Source: Fervidobacterium nodosum Rt17-B1 | GTDB taxonomy: Bacteria > Thermotogota > Thermotogae > Thermotogales > Fervidobacteriaceae | NCBI RefSeq assembly: GCF_000017545.1 | Contig: NC_009718.1 | Span: 1,798,001 to 1,862,000, forward strand | DNA length: 64,000 nucleotides | Direction: 5' to 3' | Position numbers and translations under genes: made by a program | The notes under the pieces: model-generated | Told to the model about the DNA's origin: nothing | Database searches by the model: none | The model's input: the letters and a program-made list of their open reading frames with translations, nothing else | Part shown: one piece after another, positions 37,089 to 61,759 of the stretch | Numbering within the stretch: position 1 is the stretch's first letter | Layout: every line of letters starts with the position of its first letter

Positions 37089-37118
37089 TGAACAAGAAAA
37101 TTAAAATTGTGGTATAAT
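37089..37118 (+). promoter_or_regulatory. Promoter of the response regulator-trk operon
   Basis: Extended -10 TGGTATAAT with TATAAT at 37113-37118, and a weak -35 TGAACA at 37089-37094 with an 18-base spacer. It lies about 24 bases before the SD AGGGAGG and appears to drive the long plus-strand operon that follows. Confidence 0.6.
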
Positions 37119-37141
37119 TTCCAAAGGGAGGCGATAAAAAA

Positions 37142-37774
37142 ATGATAGAAGTATTGGTAGTTGATGATGAAAAGCATGTTAGAAATTTAATTTCTAAAAT
37201 GATTTCAATATCTTTCGAATGTACTCCTGATGAAGCCGAAAATGTGGAAGAGGCTCTCCAAGTGTGTGAGAAAAAGAAGTTCGATTTGATTACAACTGAC
37301 ATAAAATTTGGGGATAATGAGGAATTGGACGGTATAGAGTTCATTAAAAGACTTAGACTTCGTGGAATTTTTACCCCCGTTCTTATCGTTTCAGCTTACG
37401 CTACTGCTGAAAAGATAGTAGAAGTTTGCAGATATTTCCCTATAGATTATCTTTCCAAGCCTTTTACACAGGATGAACTAAAGAAAAAAATAAGAGGTTT
37501 GTTGGAAGTAAGAAAGGATAGTTTCGAAAGATATTTGAGAGAAGCGGAAGGATTTATCCATTCTAATTTCCCTGGAGATTTAGAAAAAGCTGAGCAGATT
37601 GTGAGACATATGTTTTCTATAATGCCATCTTCACCTATGCCACACTATCTTATGGCTGAAATCTTGGAAAAGAGAGGAAATACCGAACTTGCTCAAAGGC
37701 ACAGAGAAGCAGGACTAGCTCTTGACGTTAATAAAAAAGGTTACAGAAGAGGTGAAAACGTTGAGAACGATTAA
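37142..37774 (+). CDS. Response regulator with receiver domain and helical (TPR-like) C-terminus
   Basis: Residues 1-120 are a receiver domain: VVDDEK with the acidic pair at 8-9, the phosphoacceptor Asp53 in LITTDIKFG, the switch Ser84 in LIVSAYA and Lys106 in YLSKPF. The remaining 90 residues are helical, resembling one or two tetratricopeptide units (DLEKAEQIVRHMFSIMPSSPMPHYLMAEILEKRGNTELAQRHREA). There is no DNA-binding or enzymatic output domain. It begins the Trk operon, and its end overlaps the first TrkA gene by 14 bases. No histidine kinase is adjacent. It probably works by protein-protein contact. Confidence 0.88.
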   Translation: MIEVLVVDDEKHVRNLISKMISISFECTPDEAENVEEALQVCEKKKFDLITTDIKFGDNEELDGIEFIKRLRLRGIFTPVLIVSAYATAEKIVEVCRYFPIDYLSKPFTQDELKKKIRGLLEVRKDSFERYLREAEGFIHSNFPGDLEKAEQIVRHMFSIMPSSPMPHYLMAEILEKRGNTELAQRHREAGLALDVNKKGYRRGENVEND

Positions 37775-38222
37775 TTATAAATTCTACGTGATAGTTGTTG
37801 GTTGTGGTCGAGTTGGTTTGGAAGTTGCTTATAGATTATCCAATATAGGATTTAATGTGACTATTGTAGACAAGAACCCTGAAATGACGGAAAATCTACC
37901 CGAAGATTATGGTGGGTTTGTAATTGTTGGTGATGCTACAGAACGTGAAACAATGGAACGAGCTAAAGCTGATAAGGCTGATATATTGATAGCAACTACT
38001 GACGATGACACAACGAATTATTTTGTTTGCCTTGTCGGAGCAAAAATATTTGGCATACCAAACGTTCTTTCACTTGTCAATAACAGGGAAAATGTTAATC
38101 TTTTTGAAAAAAGTGGGATAAATGTTATCTCACCAGTTAGCCTTGCAATTGAAAGCTTTGAAAGGAGTATCCTTGAAGGTATTGAGCACCTTTCAGATTT
38201 TATGGTAGGTGAAAAAAGGTGA
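37761..38222 (+). CDS. TrkA-N (KTN) domain potassium-channel regulator, first copy
   Basis: A 153-residue RCK/KTN protein with the complete nucleotide-binding motif VGCGRVGLEVA and the acidic strand end IVDKNPEM, then IVGDATERETMERA and IATTDDDTTNYFVCLVGA. Only the KTN part is present; there is no TrkA_C domain. It probably gates TrkH in response to NAD(H) or ATP. The chosen TTG at 37761 sits behind GAGGTGA; earlier in-frame GTG (37752) is possible. It overlaps the response regulator by 14 bases and the second TrkA gene by 4. Confidence 0.85.
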   Translation: MRTINYKFYVIVVGCGRVGLEVAYRLSNIGFNVTIVDKNPEMTENLPEDYGGFVIVGDATERETMERAKADKADILIATTDDDTTNYFVCLVGAKIFGIPNVLSLVNNRENVNLFEKSGINVISPVSLAIESFERSILEGIEHLSDFMVGEKR

Positions 38223-38878
38223 AAGTTATAATTATAGGTGGCGAACGAGTTCCTTATTTTCTCGCAAAAAAACTAATAGCTCAAGGATATGATGTATTTT
38301 TCGTAAACAAAAACATCGAACTTTGTAAAGAATATTCAAGAACGTTGAATGCGGAAATCATAAATGGTGATGGAACAAGCAAAGCGGTCCTTGACCAGCT
38401 ACAAATTGAGGAAGATGACATAGTAGTACTTTTAATGGAAAGAGATAGAAAGAATTTCTTTATAGCAAGAATGGTTCAAGAGTATTATGGTGTGAAAAAT
38501 GTTGTCACGTTGTTGAATAACACCGAGAACGAAGATTTATTCGAGAAATATGGTATAAGAATATTAAAAGTAACAGATTTAATAATGAGCAATATCGAAC
38601 CTCTGCTTTTTGAAAACGAAGTTGTGGAATCTTTGGAAAGCGAGGTTTCTTCAAAAGGAGCAATAGTTTTAAAAATTGATATAGATTGGGAAGCCAAAAT
38701 ATTGAGGAAAAACATCCGTGACATAAATGTACCAGAAGGTATAATCGTTGTTGGAATTGTTAGAGGTAGTGAATTTATTATCCCACGTGGCGAAACTACA
38801 ATTGAACCTGGGGATAAACTAATAATTGTTTGCAACAAAGAAAAAAAAGAACAAGCTTTGGAATTGTTCAGTTTTTGA
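38219..38878 (+). CDS. TrkA family protein, second copy (KTN plus TrkA_C)
   Basis: A 219-residue protein with a KTN domain followed by a TrkA_C (RCK_C) domain near the end (VPEGIIVVGIVRGSEFIIPRGETTIEPGDKLIIVC). The nucleotide loop is degenerate: the usual GxGxxG is GGERVP here (IIGGERVPYFLAKKL), though the following NGDGTSKAVL and the last acidic residues are kept. This suggests it may bind its ligand weakly or act as a structural partner of the intact first copy. It starts at GTG 38219, overlapping the first by four bases, and precedes TrkH. Confidence 0.88.
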   Translation: MKVIIIGGERVPYFLAKKLIAQGYDVFFVNKNIELCKEYSRTLNAEIINGDGTSKAVLDQLQIEEDDIVVLLMERDRKNFFIARMVQEYYGVKNVVTLLNNTENEDLFEKYGIRILKVTDLIMSNIEPLLFENEVVESLESEVSSKGAIVLKIDIDWEAKILRKNIRDINVPEGIIVVGIVRGSEFIIPRGETTIEPGDKLIIVCNKEKKEQALELFSF

Positions 38879-38907: not shown

Positions 38908-40404
38908 TTGCTAAAAAGATACACAAAAATTTATAAAGCTTTTTCTATAATTATGATACAATACGCATTTATGGCTTTAGTACCACTTATCTTTTGTTTT
39001 TTCTATCCGGAGGAATTGAATCATATTAACGGCTTTATTGTTACTGCAATTACAGCTCTTTGTTTATATTTGTCTGGCTACTTAATCAAAGGAGAAGATA
39101 TTGGCAGTATAAATTATAAAGAGGACGCCGTATTAACTATTTTTACTTGGATTATGGTTGCATTACTCTCTGCTATTCCCCATATGTTGGAGGGGCATTT
39201 GAATTTTTCTCAAGCGGTATTTGAATCCGTAAGTGGTTTAACAACAACGGGGCTAACTATGTATACTGATGTTACAAAAATTTCAAAACTAATTCTATTT
39301 TGGCGTTCTTTCACGCAGTATGTTGGTGGTGCAGGTTTTGCTCTTTTGATGCTTTCGATGGTTATAGGTCCTAAAGGAGTTGGCTTTTACAAAGCTGAAG
39401 GTAGGGTGGATAATCTTGTGCCAAACATAAGACGCTCAACACAGATAATTTTACAGATTTATGTGGCTTATACAATCGCTGGTACACTTGCATTGAAATT
39501 AGCTGGATTAAACTGGTTTGAGGCTTTGAATCATACTATGACGGCCCTTGCGACAGGTGGATTTTCCACGAGAAATGGTAGTGTTGGAGAGTTTAACAAC
39601 CTTGCTGTTGAAATAATAATCATGGTACTTATGTTTCTTGGTGCAACGGGTTTTGCTATACATTATGCATTTTGGAAAAGGAATTGGAAGGCCGTTGTAA
39701 AAAACGGCGAACCGTGGTTGATGATAATTTCGATAACTGTTTTTAGTATAATTACAGCTGTGAATGGTATTGGAAAGTACTTTAAAGATTTCAACCAGGC
39801 AATTAGGTATACGACATTCCAAATAATGTCTGCAATCAGTGGTACTGGTTTCCAAACGTTACCACTTAGTGAAGAGAAGTGGTTTTCATTTTCACCTTTG
39901 ATATTGTCGCTTATAGTTTTAATGATAGCTGGTGGCGATATGGATTCTACATCAGGTGGTATTAAACAATTCCGTGTATGGGTTATCCTAAACACAATTT
40001 TGGAGTCTATAAAAGGCTTTTTGTTACCTAAAAATAGGGTTAAAACACGTATAATTTACAAAGGAGAGCAGCAGATCGTTTTGTCTAATGAAAATGTTAG
40101 GGAAGCACTTATTATATTATTTTTGTACATTATAGCTTTTATAATAGGCTCTTTTGCATTAACATTACATGGCTATGACTTGGAACTTTCTTTATTTGAA
40201 TTTGCTTCCGCAATGGATGGTGTTGGATTATCTGTTGGGATAACATCGCCAAATATGCCTTTAACGGCAATGTGGACGCTTACAATTGGTATGTTTACTG
40301 GAAGATTTGAGTTTTTAATTATTATATACGCTATATCTAAGTTGGCTAGTGATTTTAGGATGACATTCAAAAAAACAAAAAAAAGGAGAGATGTTGTTGC
40401 CTAA
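38908..40404 (+). CDS. Potassium uptake protein TrkH/KtrB family
   Basis: The 498-residue membrane protein has the four M1-P-M2 repeats of this cation-channel superfamily. Filter segments are visible as SGLTTTGLTM, ALATGGFSTRN, SAISGTGFQTL and AMDGVGLSVG, each with the key Gly. It should form the K+ pathway gated by the KTN proteins. It starts at TTG 38908 behind ACGGAGGGA and follows the second TrkA gene by 29 bases. The third filter is followed by GGDMDSTSGGIKQFR, the gating-loop motif. Confidence 0.94.
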   Translation: MLKRYTKIYKAFSIIMIQYAFMALVPLIFCFFYPEELNHINGFIVTAITALCLYLSGYLIKGEDIGSINYKEDAVLTIFTWIMVALLSAIPHMLEGHLNFSQAVFESVSGLTTTGLTMYTDVTKISKLILFWRSFTQYVGGAGFALLMLSMVIGPKGVGFYKAEGRVDNLVPNIRRSTQIILQIYVAYTIAGTLALKLAGLNWFEALNHTMTALATGGFSTRNGSVGEFNNLAVEIIIMVLMFLGATGFAIHYAFWKRNWKAVVKNGEPWLMIISITVFSIITAVNGIGKYFKDFNQAIRYTTFQIMSAISGTGFQTLPLSEEKWFSFSPLILSLIVLMIAGGDMDSTSGGIKQFRVWVILNTILESIKGFLLPKNRVKTRIIYKGEQQIVLSNENVREALIILFLYIIAFIIGSFALTLHGYDLELSLFEFASAMDGVGLSVGITSPNMPLTAMWTLTIGMFTGRFEFLIIIYAISKLASDFRMTFKKTKKRRDVVA

Positions 40405-56814: not shown

Positions 56815-57498
56815 GTGGACTTTCTCAGGGGGATTTGGGAGAAAGTAAGAAGTATAAAAGATGAAAAAAGTTTCTTTATTTTGTTTGCATTGTTGATAGT
56901 TATCTTGAGTATATTTTATAGACCTTTTTATTATTCCAAAGTTTTGGCTCAGAAAGAACAACAAGTCAACACTTCTGTTAAAGAAGCGAATTTTCAAAAA
57001 AGAGAATACGCTTCACCAATTATTGATTTGAACACAGCCAGTGTTGAACAATTGCAGACACTTCCTGGAATAGGTCCTTCTAAAGCAAGAGCTATAGTTG
57101 AATATAGGGAAAAGCAACCGTTTTCTAAGCCGGAAGATTTAATGAACGTATCGGGGATTGGTCCGAAGACATTCGAAAAAATAAAAGATAGGATAACTGT
57201 TAGCACGGTTAATACGGTTAATATGGCAAACAACACGCCAAGTACAACTCAAAGCACAACTCAAAATAATCAAAGCCAAAATGGCAACAAAAATATTTCA
57301 CCAGAAAAGATTAATATAAACACAGCTAATTTAGAAGAATTACAAAAATTGCCTGGGATAGGTCCTTCCAAAGCCCAGGCAATTATTGATTATAGGGAAA
57401 AGGTTGGAAAGTTCAAATCGATTGAGGAGATTAAAAATGTAAAAGGCATTGGTGAAAAAACGTATGAGAAATTGAAGGAGTTAATAACTATTTATTGA
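56815..57498 (+). CDS. ComEA-type DNA-binding protein with two HhH modules
   Basis: ComEA binds incoming DNA at the envelope during natural transformation. This 227-residue protein has one membrane segment (about 20-36), a linker, then two complete ComEA helix-hairpin-helix modules: LNTASVEQLQTLPGIGPSKARAI with its VSGIGPKTFEKI, and NTANLEELQKLPGIGPSKAQAI with VKGIGEKTYEKL. Usual ComEA proteins have one. GTG 56815 has GGGGAGG eight bases upstream; an ATG at 56779 overlaps the preceding stop but has no such SD. Its end overlaps the convergent response-regulator gene by seven bases. Confidence 0.88.
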   Translation: MDFLRGIWEKVRSIKDEKSFFILFALLIVILSIFYRPFYYSKVLAQKEQQVNTSVKEANFQKREYASPIIDLNTASVEQLQTLPGIGPSKARAIVEYREKQPFSKPEDLMNVSGIGPKTFEKIKDRITVSTVNTVNMANNTPSTTQSTTQNNQSQNGNKNISPEKININTANLEELQKLPGIGPSKAQAIIDYREKVGKFKSIEEIKNVKGIGEKTYEKLKELITIY

Positions 57499-58907
57499 AA
57501 ATACATTTTTCTTATTTCCTCGTACGAATCAAAGAACACCTTCGCAACTTTTGGATCAAATTTCTTCCCAACATTTTCTTTTATGTACTTAATCACTTCT
57601 TCTTCCTTCCAAGCAGGTCTGTAAACCCTATCTGACAACAACGCGTCAAAGACATCTATCAAACTCACTATCCTTGCTTCCAAAGGAATTTCTTCGCCTT
57701 TTAAGCTATTTGGATATCCACTACCATCCCAATTTTCATGATGGTTTAACGCAACCGTACTTGCGAGTTGAAAAATTGGGTGATCGATTGTGGAAAGGAT
57801 TCTATAACCAATTAACGTGTGTGTTTTCATAATTTCGAATTCTTCTTTTGACAATTGCCCAGGCTTGTTAAGTATACTATCTGGAATACCTATCTTTCCA
57901 ACATCATGGAGCATAGCCGCTATTTCAAACATACTCGCGACTTCATCGTTGTAACCAAAAAACGGAATCAACATCTTTGCTATCTTACCTATGCGTTGTA
58001 CGTGTTCTCCAGTCTCAGACGACCTCGTCTCTGTAACTTCTGATATAATGTATACAATTTTATAAAGTGTGTCTATAAGGTCTTGAGTTAACAAATGGTT
58101 TTCCATAACAAGAACAAACTTTTCGAAGAACATTTCTATTAGATTTTTATATATTTCATCGAATGGCTTTGAGAATTCAATAGATATTTTTATGTATTCG
58201 TCTATTTTGGTTCTAAATTTTAAATTCAAACTTTTTTCAGAGCTCCAAGTAAGATGAGAGTTTCGATTTAATTCTTTTTCGTTGTTTGATAAAAGTTCAT
58301 ATGATATACTAAAGTTATTGTTTAATATCAACGAAACATTATCCACGGCTTCGTTTAGTACGTCTATATACTCTTGTTCAGCTAATTGGTTAGAAAAGCG
58401 AGATGTGTAGAAATTTAACCTTTCAAGTAATTTTTTCTGTGTTTCGAGAAAGGTTATGTATTTATATTCTCTAAGCTTAGAGACAATCAATGTGAAAAGA
58501 GCGTTGCTTGAAAGCTCAGATTTTTCACGATAGTCATTTATATCATACCTTAATATTATCTCTCTTGGTGGAGCGTAACCTGGTTGACCGGTTCTTATTA
58601 CTAGCCGCATTTTCTTATTATCAAGTTCTTCCCTTATGAACTGAACCAACGTTAACCCAGAATTATCGCTTTCCATGACAACGTCTATCAAAGCAACGGC
58701 TATATCTTCGACATTTTTCAAAATCTCCATTGCCTCAGAAGCAGAGTAAGCGCTGTATATTTTTACAGGGCGTGACTCAAAAATTATATCTTTGGCTATC
58801 AGAGACGTGACTGCGTGGATATCAGGTTCATCGTCTACAACAAGTATTTTCCAAGGCTCATTGTATATCTTTTGCTCAGCCTTTTTCTTTAAAAATTCCA
58901 ACGCCAA
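57492..58907 (-). CDS. Response regulator: receiver, DUF3369-like region, HD-GYP phosphodiesterase
   Basis: The 471-residue protein begins with a receiver domain (VVDDEPD at 23-29, phosphoacceptor Asp75 in ALIDVVME), a middle ~130-residue region (about 160-285) like DUF3369, and an HD-GYP domain. The HD pair is His334-Asp335 in AMLHDVGKIG and the GYP lies at 397-399 in ENWDGSGYP, so cyclic-di-GMP hydrolysis is likely. It starts at TTG 58907 behind AGGGGGTG. It is the last gene of the VanZ-sensor-kinase operon and is probably phosphorylated by the kinase. Confidence 0.93.
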   Translation of the reverse strand: MALEFLKKKAEQKIYNEPWKILVVDDEPDIHAVTSLIAKDIIFESRPVKIYSAYSASEAMEILKNVEDIAVALIDVVMESDNSGLTLVQFIREELDNKKMRLVIRTGQPGYAPPREIILRYDINDYREKSELSSNALFTLIVSKLREYKYITFLETQKKLLERLNFYTSRFSNQLAEQEYIDVLNEAVDNVSLILNNNFSISYELLSNNEKELNRNSHLTWSSEKSLNLKFRTKIDEYIKISIEFSKPFDEIYKNLIEMFFEKFVLVMENHLLTQDLIDTLYKIVYIISEVTETRSSETGEHVQRIGKIAKMLIPFFGYNDEVASMFEIAAMLHDVGKIGIPDSILNKPGQLSKEEFEIMKTHTLIGYRILSTIDHPIFQLASTVALNHHENWDGSGYPNSLKGEEIPLEARIVSLIDVFDALLSDRVYRPAWKEEEVIKYIKENVGKKFDPKVAKVFFDSYEEIRKMYFQ

Positions 58908-58940
58908 GATTTATTCACCCCCTGTTAAAAATTCAGATTT

Positions 58941-60275
58941 TCAAATTTCACAGGGTACCAAAATCTTAAATGTTGTTCCCTTGCCTTCCTCACTTTCCAA
59001 TGTTATTTCTCCTCTTAGTAACTCTGTCACAAGCTGATAAACGATACTTAAACCTAATCCACTACCTGAGAATGTGTCAGTTGTATAGAAAGGCTCAAAC
59101 GCGCGTCTTTTTGTTTCTTCGTTCATACCTTTTCCATTGTCAGAGAAAATCATTAAAACCTTGCTATTAATTTTTTCGAACTTTACAACTATCTCTCCAG
59201 GATTATCGTATTCAAAACCGTGTATGATGGAATTATCGATTAAGTTCATCAATATCTGTGCCCATGCACCAGGAACGGTTTTCATTTCTAAATCGTCTGG
59301 CACATCTACTTTTATAGATATTTTTGTTTTTCTCAATTTCGGATGCATAGCGTTCAGTACATCGTTAACAACATCTTTAATTTTTACGGTAGAAACAGTT
59401 TGGGTAAGCTCATTCACAGCTACTCTCTTCAGACTTTGAACAAGGTCTCTTATTCTTTGTGCATTTCTTATCATAATATCAACCAAGTCGTTGCAAGTAT
59501 TCAAGCATTCTCTTAATTCTTCTTCTGTTAATTCTTCGCTGGCTAACTTTTCGGTAATATTTTTAATCCTATCTTTGATATCCGTTAAGGAAGAATATAT
59601 TATTCCTATTGGAGTATTAACATCGTGGGCGATGTTTATCATCAATTTGCCAAGTACTGCCATTTTCTCCGAGTTTATAACTCTCTGTTGTGTTTCCTCA
59701 AGTTCGGATAAAGTTACCTCAAGTTCCGAATTCGCTTCATTTAGTTCAGAAATAAGATTCTTGAGTTTTTCACTTTTTTCAATATTTTTCAAAAGCAAGA
59801 AGATTACAAAATAAAGCGCCACAAATATCATAGATATGATGAAAAGTAATTTTGCAGGTTCAATATCCGAATATTCAAAAACAACTTTTCCAGCAAGGAA
59901 TCCTTTGTAATCCATCAAATATTCTTTAAATTTTGTGCGAAGGCCGAATATCGAATGGATCATTGTTATACTCTCAGATTTTGATATTTTTCCAAGAACT
60001 TCGCATTTATCATCGTAAACCGTAATTGATATTATGTCTTTTTTCTTTATCATAGGGGTCATAGTCATCTCAACAAGATTTTTATTCAAAGTCCAAGAAG
60101 GATATGTAAGTGCTTCGGTGAAAGTTTCGAAAACATTGTAAAGCTCCTTTTTCCAAGATTCGATGTAAGAAAAGGTTATGAATAAAAATGATACTATTAA
60201 TACAGCAGCGGATAAAGAATTTAAAATATAAAATTTCTTTTTATTAGAATTGGTATTTATTTTTGTTTCTTTCAC
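58941..60275 (-). CDS. Membrane sensor histidine kinase
   Basis: The 444-residue kinase has two membrane segments (about 15-38 and 142-163) bounding a ~100-residue external sensor, then a coiled coil (EANSELEVTLSELEETQQ), the DHp helix with phosphoacceptor His217 in INIAHDVNTPIG, a long inserted pair of helices (TEKLASEELTEEEL), and a HATPase with NSIIHG, DNGKGM, and GSGLGLSIV. The 'HDVNTP' DHp form is like that of HWE-lacking, NtrB-type sensors. It starts at a GTG, with the HD-GYP regulator gene following by 33 bases, so the pair is a two-component system. Confidence 0.93.
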   Translation of the reverse strand: MKETKINTNSNKKKFYILNSLSAAVLIVSFLFITFSYIESWKKELYNVFETFTEALTYPSWTLNKNLVEMTMTPMIKKKDIISITVYDDKCEVLGKISKSESITMIHSIFGLRTKFKEYLMDYKGFLAGKVVFEYSDIEPAKLLFIISMIFVALYFVIFLLLKNIEKSEKLKNLISELNEANSELEVTLSELEETQQRVINSEKMAVLGKLMINIAHDVNTPIGIIYSSLTDIKDRIKNITEKLASEELTEEELRECLNTCNDLVDIMIRNAQRIRDLVQSLKRVAVNELTQTVSTVKIKDVVNDVLNAMHPKLRKTKISIKVDVPDDLEMKTVPGAWAQILMNLIDNSIIHGFEYDNPGEIVVKFEKINSKVLMIFSDNGKGMNEETKRRAFEPFYTTDTFSGSGLGLSIVYQLVTELLRGEITLESEEGKGTTFKILVPCEI

Positions 60276-60307: not shown

Positions 60308-61759
60308 TTAAAATTGTAAATCCTTCAACGTCAAACCATATTTCTTAAGTATGTTTTCATAGTCCGAGGATTTTTTAAATTTTTGGAGTTCAGGTGTGAA
60401 TATTTCGCTTAAGTATGTACCATGGAAATTCTTTGAAAAAGCTACGTAATAAATCATCTTCTCACTGAAAATTTTTGAATATTCAACATCGTTTTCTATG
60501 CCAAGGTCTTTTGCTATTGACTTGCCGACCAAAAGATTGCATACGAACAGATCTATTCTACCATTTTTTAAAAGCTCAAACCCCGTAACATCATCTATTA
60601 CTGGTTCTTTTTTGAATTTGGCATTCCAAAACCAATCACCGTAGGCATACCCAATGGAGTATCCACAAATGATATTGCTAGGTATGTTTTCCAATGAAGA
60701 AATATCTATATTTTTGTTTTTCATTTTGAAGAGCACATCGTAACCAGTACTGAGTGGTTCGTCAGGAAATACAAGGTAAGTTTTTCTTTCATCGTTAATT
60801 CTCAGCGACATTATACCATCGTAGGCTGAATTTTTCATCGCGTCCAAGCATCTTTCCCAAGGGAGTGTCCGGAAAACTACTTTGTAACCTAATTTTTCAA
60901 AAACCTTTGTAACGGTATCAACATCGAATCCTTTCCAAATTTTTTCTTTTTCATCGTACCATTCGTACGGTTTCCAATCAACTGTTAGTATTTCGACAAC
61001 ATTTCCCGGTAAGACATAATCTTGCAATTTGTACTTATTTATCAAAGATGCTATTGTACCTTTTTTGTGAAAGCTTTTAATAGCTTCTTCTATTTTTTGA
61101 GATACGTAATTGTTAACTTTTTTGCTGAGTACAACGTAATGATAGTACTTTTCGTCCACCAAATTTAGCTTCTCATATTTATTTGGATTTTGGCTTAAGA
61201 TATATCCAAGCACGATAGAAGAGTAAAATAAAGCATCTATTTTATTTTCATCCAATGCTTTTAATGCTTCATTTATATTTTTAAACGCTGTTATTTGAGA
61301 CTTGTTGAATATATTTGGCAGACTTTTAGAAGTGACAGTATCTCCTATGACCCCTATTCTTGTTAATGAGCTAAAGTGAATAACATTCGAACTTCTCTTT
61401 TTAAGGATAAACATTTCTCTTAATCCATACAGTGGCGTTTTTACATACTGCACTTTATCTTTTCTATCTTCGGAATATGCAGCTCCGATGAAGATATCTA
61501 TCTCATTTTTTTCAAGTGCGTTAAATATCTCGCTTATAGTTAAAGGATTTTTAGATTTATATTCGATTTTTATATTTTCCTTTGAAAGTTCACTATTTAA
61601 AGCTTTAATTATATCATTGCACAAACCACTTAAGTCATCTCCCAATTTGAAATACTTTGGGATTGCATCTTGTGGATATGTGTATAAAACTATGCCGAAT
61701 ATCGAATATGTACCAAAGATTAGAAGAAATAAAAACAGTATACTCATTTTTACTTTCAT
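60308..61759 (-). CDS. Free-standing periplasmic protein with two tandem SBP-3 (amino-acid-type) domains
   Basis: After a signal peptide (about 1-22) come two complete bacterial extracellular solute-binding (family 3) domains, at about 23-250 and 255-483. Each has the LxYxx...F..D start and the 'GyD' hinge features (first: GVIGDTVTSKSLP; second: VDWKPYEWYDE, GFDVDTVTKVFEKLG). There is no lipobox or membrane segment after the signal. BvgS/EvgS-type kinases carry two such domains in front of the kinase; here they are a separate gene 32 bases before the kinase gene. Likely a ligand sensor for the kinase. Confidence 0.88.
   Translation of the reverse strand: MKVKMSILFLFLLIFGTYSIFGIVLYTYPQDAIPKYFKLGDDLSGLCNDIIKALNSELSKENIKIEYKSKNPLTISEIFNALEKNEIDIFIGAAYSEDRKDKVQYVKTPLYGLREMFILKKRSSNVIHFSSLTRIGVIGDTVTSKSLPNIFNKSQITAFKNINEALKALDENKIDALFYSSIVLGYILSQNPNKYEKLNLVDEKYYHYVVLSKKVNNYVSQKIEEAIKSFHKKGTIASLINKYKLQDYVLPGNVVEILTVDWKPYEWYDEKEKIWKGFDVDTVTKVFEKLGYKVVFRTLPWERCLDAMKNSAYDGIMSLRINDERKTYLVFPDEPLSTGYDVLFKMKNKNIDISSLENIPSNIICGYSIGYAYGDWFWNAKFKKEPVIDDVTGFELLKNGRIDLFVCNLLVGKSIAKDLGIENDVEYSKIFSEKMIYYVAFSKNFHGTYLSEIFTPELQKFKKSSDYENILKKYGLTLKDLQF

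Follow-up and report, generated by a model that had tools for sequence, protein, structure and literature searches.

The response regulator (RR) gene that heads the trk operon in the window (the whole stretch of 64,000 nucleotides that was analysed, which sits in a 1.95 Mb one-contig genome) was judged, with a probability of roughly 0.5, to encode a dedicated regulator that acts by contact on the two-subunit Trk gating ring. This reading was adopted because the gene order is kept in 63 of 69 RR-bearing Thermotogota genomes, because the RR gene is closely coupled to that of the first TrkA subunit (TrkA1) in 64 of 64 linked copies and because the protein has a predicted TPR tail without a DNA-binding output; further support came from operons joining a kinase to trk genes in two relatives (G005 and G038), from the pattern of residue Lys69 in TrkA1 and from family f10 (probably Petrotogaceae), in which the phospho-site was changed from Asp to Glu (D53E) with tail and linkage kept. 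Counted against it were five unlinked RRs in family f3 (probably Thermotogaceae), 17 rings without an RR and the lack of a kinase tracking the RR. The features of the locus were as follows (window coordinates, strand, identity; basis in brackets).

37089–37118, +: promoter-like TGAACA-N18-TATAAT with TG before the −10, then GGGAGG at 37126–37131 (consensus match only)
37142–37774, +: response regulator with predicted two-TPR tail, 210 aa, heads the trk operon (ORF, ATG start, Pfam, AlphaFold2)
37142–37507, +: REC domain, residues 1–122, pocket D8/D9, D53, S84, K106 (Pfam, alignment, AlphaFold2)
37298–37300, 37391–37393 and 37457–37459, +: pocket codons of D53, S84 and K106, respectively (alignment)
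37517–37732, +: predicted C-terminal two-TPR domain, residues 126–197, family motif PSSPxPHYL (family profile, Pfam, AlphaFold2, Foldseek)
37761–38222, +: TrkA1, KTN only, 153 aa, TTG start, relative of TM1088A (PDB match, start comparison)
37965–37967, +: TrkA1 Lys69 codon, kept with the RR gene and lost in both RR-loss clades (column comparison)
38219–38878, +: TrkA2, KTN and TrkA_C, 219 aa, relative of TM1088B (Pfam, PDB match)
38908–40404, +: TrkH potassium channel subunit, 498 aa (Pfam, NCBIfam)

All four genes lie on the forward strand in the order RR-TrkA1-TrkA2-TrkH. A promoter-like site lies upstream of the RR gene, which was therefore taken as the first gene, in agreement with the original prediction that it leads the potassium-uptake operon; sites of the same pattern numbered 29 in the region against 18.2 expected. 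The 14-base overlap with the first TrkA gene, also proposed at the outset, holds given a TrkA1 start at TTG 37761, which is preceded by a ribosome-binding-like AGAGGTG and recurs as a TTG at −14 in 10 of 10 genomes examined of genera g1 and g2; the longer TrkA1 in the ORF list (TTG at 37722) was not needed, and TTG 37761 was preferred. TrkA1 and TrkA2 overlap by 4 bases, and TrkH starts 29 bases downstream. By Pfam, the TrkA_C domain is absent from TrkA1 and present in TrkA2, and the closest PDB matches were TM1088A for TrkA1 (2.8e-28) and TM1088B for TrkA2 (2.9e-47), which together form the solved octameric two-subunit TrkA gating ring of Thermotoga maritima (PDB 3L4B; PMC4380455, partial text). 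With a KTN-only and a KTN+RCK_C subunit, overlapping genes and TrkH next to them, the window pair is predicted to form a ring of this type; two overlapping genes are found in each case, whereas the g13 genomes (probably Thermotoga, from their 143-aa TrkA1) are without the RR, unlike the window. The term 'response regulator' was absent from the main text of PMC4380455. TrkA2 (38219–38878) has GGERVPY where TrkA1 has a nucleotide-binding-like GCGRVG loop, so that perhaps only TrkA1 of the two subunits binds nucleotide. Close downstream on the same strand follow genes for a DUF4897 protein, a DUF6115 protein, AMMECR1, a protein with no Pfam match and a TrmI-like methyltransferase, and a protease-like gene (the last by reading); an Rfam scan near the trk operon returned no RNA element at the gathering threshold.

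The receiver matched Pfam Response_reg (PF00072) at 4.8e-22 over residues 4–118, and the alignment contained the complete pocket D8, D9, D53, S84 and K106 together with the aromatic Y103, which bears out the intact receiver (Asp53, Ser84, Lys106) read originally; judged by these residues, the REC domain is probably phosphorylatable. Pfam and NCBIfam gave nothing DNA- or RNA-binding and no enzymatic output beyond REC in the window RR. For this RR alone TPR matches fell below the Pfam cut-off, and at E≤0.1 TPR_14 was matched by 23 and TPR_2 by 22 of 40 family tails. A full-length AlphaFold2 model (61 aligned sequences, mean pLDDT 87.7) consisted of a receiver fold followed by four helices; Foldseek with this model returned receivers and receiver-bearing regulators, and the tail was therefore folded separately. 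Modelled alone, it again gave four helices (pLDDT 96.6), and the top Foldseek matches against the PDB were nearly all TPR proteins (Tah1, MamA, consensus TPRs) with a TM of about 0.8 and weak E-values (best 0.02). On the models and the family matches, the RR is a REC domain followed by two predicted TPR repeats, as the earlier reading of a TPR-like C-terminus had it. The earlier description as output-less stands insofar as DNA-binding and enzymatic domains are lacking from the matches, and falls because the tail is a predicted two-TPR protein-binding domain. With this tail and no HTH or AAA+ output, the RR lies outside the DNA-binding classes OmpR, NarL and NtrC; it is not a stand-alone receiver of the CheY/Spo0F/EpsW type either, since residues 126–197 form a predicted two-TPR domain conserved family-wide.

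For the linkage survey, a profile of the tail (A3, from 40 of 62 RR rows) was searched against 103 Thermotogota genomes and matched 75 of them at 1e-3; a strong match (E≤2e-13), found in 69, was taken as membership of the RR family. Reading of the loci showed the RR immediately ahead of TrkA1, with both genes on one strand, in 63 of these 69 genomes, from families f1, f2, f4, f5, f7, f9, f10 and f11 (64 linked copies in total, as G005 carries two), and the conservation of the RR-TrkA-TrkA-TrkH order in Thermotogota, which had been suggested as a check, was thereby found. In five genomes, all of family f3 (g10, g11, g14), the RR lies away from trk and adjoins an ORF of 254–264 aa, in two genomes with a metG-like gene as well; Pfam on one scanned ORF of this kind gave no match. 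In G034 the contig ends at the RR and linkage is unreadable. The RR stop lay no more than about 30 bases from a plausible TrkA1 start in all 64 linked copies, mostly with an overlap. The gene upstream of the RR differs between families (HslU, FeoB, purA, glnA, AsnRS and others, by reading), and the linkage is therefore more than slow shuffling; with 63 of 69 RR-bearing genomes, chance is excluded as its source. The 34 RR-less genomes comprised eight of f3 (g12, g13), G086, two of f6, ten of f8, nine of f10 (g29, g30, g34) and four incomplete bins (G055, G062, G072, G102). One scanned f8 genome (genus g20) had TrkA_C on both TrkA subunits, and the ring there is therefore of another type. For a scan of the whole collection the 61 aligned RRs were too diverse, and a motif was built from seven tails; among 84,980 species it was found at 16 loci, 15 in Thermotogota and one outside (L098, Oxalobacteraceae; a TPR-type protein without a receiver, by reading), so that the restriction to Thermotogota applies to the motif PSSPxPH[YF]L[MY] and does not extend to all REC-TPR proteins. 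No natural RR-TrkA1 fusion was seen in open-frame lengths. At L124 (G068:C1:1563800-1569300) an insertion splits the trk operon: a 529-aa transposase-like ORF lies between a truncated TrkA1 (135 aa) and TrkA2, and the RR is intact. In f3 loci L074 (3724–5422) and L076 (4389–6018) TrkA1 lies outside the trk operon, before a gene for a protein of about 400 aa, which in L074 has a cyclic-nucleotide-binding domain; a Mini-III-like gene is next (by reading).

The phospho-site was surveyed in 70 RR copies (62 aligned and 8 read by motif) and was Asp in 58 and Glu in 12, the latter being all 11 copies of f10 (L067, L068, L077 and L105–L112) and one f11 copy (L053). The D53E copies of f10 retain both the tail and the linkage to trk, and the Lys of the pocket is kept in 61 of the 62 aligned copies. 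In the unlinked f3 copies D9 is replaced by A or S (five of five) and S84 is changed, a loss that is uncertain since the alignment may be off by one position there (Thr at 83); the RR of G018 is without D8, D9 and K106. The tail was kept in the Glu-bearing, the f3 and the G018 copies. By their residues, the Glu-bearing f10 copies and L053 would be classed as aspartate-less receivers, a class that excludes the window RR. Glu at the phospho-site can mimic phosphorylation, though it is often insufficient alone, and a survey of aspartate-less receivers names Thermotogae among five classes without them (PMC4395418 for both, partial text); this absence is contradicted by the 12 aspartate-less copies found here. 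In a tree of TrkA1 and TrkA2 (77 rows, quick method), the nine RR-less f10 genomes formed one clade nested in f10 (SH-aLRT 99); they have an HslU-like gene directly 5' of TrkA1, the arrangement in other f10 genomes being HslU-RR-TrkA1. The simplest history of f10 is D53E first, then gene loss. The RR gene was also lost in g12 and g13 of f3, and 17 genomes have a TrkA1-type ring and TrkH without an RR, which is therefore dispensable for the existence of the ring. A universal phospho-switch is counted against by Glu in 12 of 70 copies, by the five f3 copies, whose pockets are changed and which have no trk linkage, and by these 17 genomes.

Columns of TrkA1, TrkA2 and TrkH were compared between RR-bearing and RR-lacking genomes, restricted to the 163 columns in which conservation reached 80% or more in each of the three RR-bearing groups. 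Five columns were changed with the f10 loss and nine with the f3 loss, and one was changed with both, TrkA1 Lys69 (numbering of the 153-aa TrkA1; residue 82 in the longer ORF). Of 69 TrkA1 proteins from RR-bearing genomes, 66 have Lys at this residue, two have Arg and one has Gln (G002, where the RR is kept); the five f3 genomes with an unlinked RR are among the 69 and retain Lys69. After the two RR losses, Lys and Arg are both absent from all 17 proteins (8 Asn, 7 Gly, 1 Asp, 1 Gln). RR-free f8 subunits read by eye have Gly at this residue. Counted along the TrkA1 of L082, Lys69 falls at Gly69 in the TM1088A-type subunit, a few residues ahead of β4 (Met75–Ala78), the strand that packs in the TM1088A dimer interface (PMC4380455, partial text). 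Since chance would yield 0.28 such double-changed columns and the independent losses number only two, with which an independent-pairs test cannot reach significance, Lys69 is a lead and not proof; the tracking of RR presence by this residue is suggestive, not significant.

The statement that no kinase is nearby was confirmed, the nearest in the window lying about 21 kb from the RR (58941–60275, −) and having a REC/HD-GYP gene of its own next to it (HD-GYP assigned by reading). This sensor kinase and REC/HD-GYP pair occupies 57492–60275 (−), and a solute-binding-like gene at 60308–61759 precedes it. Contig C72 of G005 (L062, 2184–7203) carries a second trk operon of the order HK-REC-REC/TPR-TrkA1-TrkA2-TrkH, with a kinase of 616 aa (4HB-HAMP-PAS-HisKA-HATPase); as G005 is an 86%-complete metagenome bin, the contig is only 7.2 kb long and TrkA1 and TrkA2 of this operon are unusually divergent (branch 1.96), mis-binning is possible. 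In G038, which is 99% complete, a kinase (623 aa), an RR and TrkH (442 aa) lie together on a 332 kb contig (L169, 2816–6548), about 60 kb from the main trk locus; the receivers of the G038 and L062 RRs are 48% identical, and Pfam gave no TPR match on the G038 tail. Contig C51 of G031 (L059) has a kinase, a receiver and a REC-TPR gene and then ends. At 1e-4 four of the 103 genomes had a match to the kinase sensor; that of G055, the fourth, is a chemoreceptor by reading. Relatives thus join a sensor kinase, an RR of this type and Trk genes in at least two arrangements, which do not identify the phosphodonor of the window RR. Phylogenetic profiles across the 103 genomes were made for two orphan kinases from the window's genome by way of their sensor halves: G000:C1:951955 was found in 102, and G000:C1:439927 in 63, being missing from the listed f9 genomes, where the RR is present. 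As neither distribution follows the RR, both were rejected and no partner is named; the genome also carries a 340-aa PAS kinase near G000:C1:1560399. The orphan sensor kinase of L100 (G000:C1:951955-954700) is about 917 aa long, and its g12/g13 version has an open frame of about 760 aa, with the first 300 residues or so lacking a match.

In the reading of the RR as a dedicated Trk regulator, Asp53 of the receiver would be phosphorylated by a kinase encoded elsewhere or by a small phosphodonor, the two-TPR tail would bind the cytosolic TrkA1/TrkA2 ring, most likely at TrkA1, and phosphorylation would shift the ring between keeping TrkH shut and letting it open; the tail would hold on to the ring, with the receiver as the switch, and a protein bound near a hinge could bias the ring's move. 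We infer the physical contact of RR and TrkA1, the direction of the effect, phosphorylation as the input in the window species, action after translation and, with them, direct gating of a K+ channel by an RR. A fuller version is offered tentatively, at odds clearly below even: the Thermotogota RR would be a third, phospho-switchable ring subunit, docked by its TPR domain near Lys69 of TrkA1 and the dimer hinge and allowing a kinase to gate the channel directly, and one family would have fixed the switch by D53E before a nested clade dropped the subunit as the ring adapted (loss of Lys69).

The altered pockets (Glu in 12 of 70, D9 and S84 changed in five of five f3 copies, D8, D9 and K106 missing in G018) with the tail kept in every such copy would also fit a factor for the structure or assembly of the two-subunit ring, in which the TPR domain works, phosphorylation is of little consequence and the receiver is a drifting remnant, but a switch out of use would hardly be expected to retain Asp in 58 of 70 and Lys in 61 of 62 aligned copies. 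Rings moreover form without the RR, the T. maritima TM1088A:TM1088B octamer having been crystallised from two subunits (PMC4380455, partial text). Such a factor was considered unlikely. TPR domains bind many partners, and the f3 RR adjoins a 254–255-aa protein away from trk, so the RR may signal elsewhere, for example to another regulator, and share the operon with trk simply so that both are expressed together under osmotic or ionic stress. We regard this too as improbable, since the RR is immediately upstream of TrkA1 in 64 of 64 linked copies while the outer neighbours vary, and since a TrkA1 residue changes with RR loss and stays in the five f3 genomes with an unlinked RR. Control of trk transcription or RNA by the RR, despite its lack of a known output domain, was thought very improbable: it is promoter-proximal, like an autoregulator, but nothing DNA- or RNA-binding was found by Pfam or NCBIfam beyond REC, the tail is predicted to fold as TPR and no Rfam element was found near the operon. 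PlrR and NtrX are NtrC-type DNA-binding regulators. Their place beside trkAH in Proteobacteria (PMC13001219, partial text) counts in favour of such control.

The new link between two-component signalling and K+ transport claimed by the original prediction is too strong. In Proteobacteria, ntrYX/plrSR adjoins trkA-trkH with the RR gene directly before trkA, Bordetella plrR overlaps trkA by 4 bp and trkA is downstream in only 53 of 198 plrS relatives (27%) (PMC13001219, partial text). A two-component gene next to trkA is therefore not new; the window RR shares the position directly before trkA and differs in its predicted TPR tail, in having no adjacent kinase gene and in a linkage of 63 of 69 against 27%. 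PtsN (EIIANtr) acts on the K+/H+ antiporter YcgO (PMC11808508, partial text), and of the KdpD/KdpE pair the KdpD serine kinase acts on KdpFABC (PMC11018627, partial text), so that direct phospho-control of K+ transport has precedents. PtsN, like the proposed RR, is a phosphoprotein controlling a K+ transporter via phosphorylation-dependent contact, but it belongs to the PTS and is not a response regulator. PtsN also pairs with TrkA in E. coli. KdpD and KdpE are likewise two-component proteins governing K+ uptake, post-translationally too, with the difference that there the pump is the target of the sensor kinase itself; KdpE functions as a transcription factor. The single-domain RR EpsW activates the membrane-associated phosphoglycosyl transferase EpsZ by contact (PMC12802240, partial text) and is a recent precedent for direct control of a membrane protein by an RR without a DNA-binding part. 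Both lack a DNA-binding domain, and action by contact is established for EpsW and proposed for the window RR; EpsW is a lone receiver with a polysaccharide-making target, in contrast to the TPR tail and channel operon here. Among the papers listed by a literature search, with most subscription journals outside it, none described a two-subunit TrkA ring regulated by a REC-TPR protein with linkage of this depth, and such a regulator is what differs from the known trk-linked two-component genes.

The system consists of four small thermostable proteins with a ring of solved type and so is directly testable, and the passage from Asp to Glu and then to gene loss amounts to a mutational experiment performed by nature. 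Inputs known for RCK/KTN rings are nucleotide, ions and c-di-AMP. If the reading of the RR as a dedicated Trk regulator is true, a protein input would be added to these, an RR without a DNA-binding part would gain a clear target and a sensor kinase would act on membrane K+ conductance at once via the gating ring, bypassing transcription; the results suggest that signalling may open or close the Thermotogota potassium channel directly, beyond switching its genes on.
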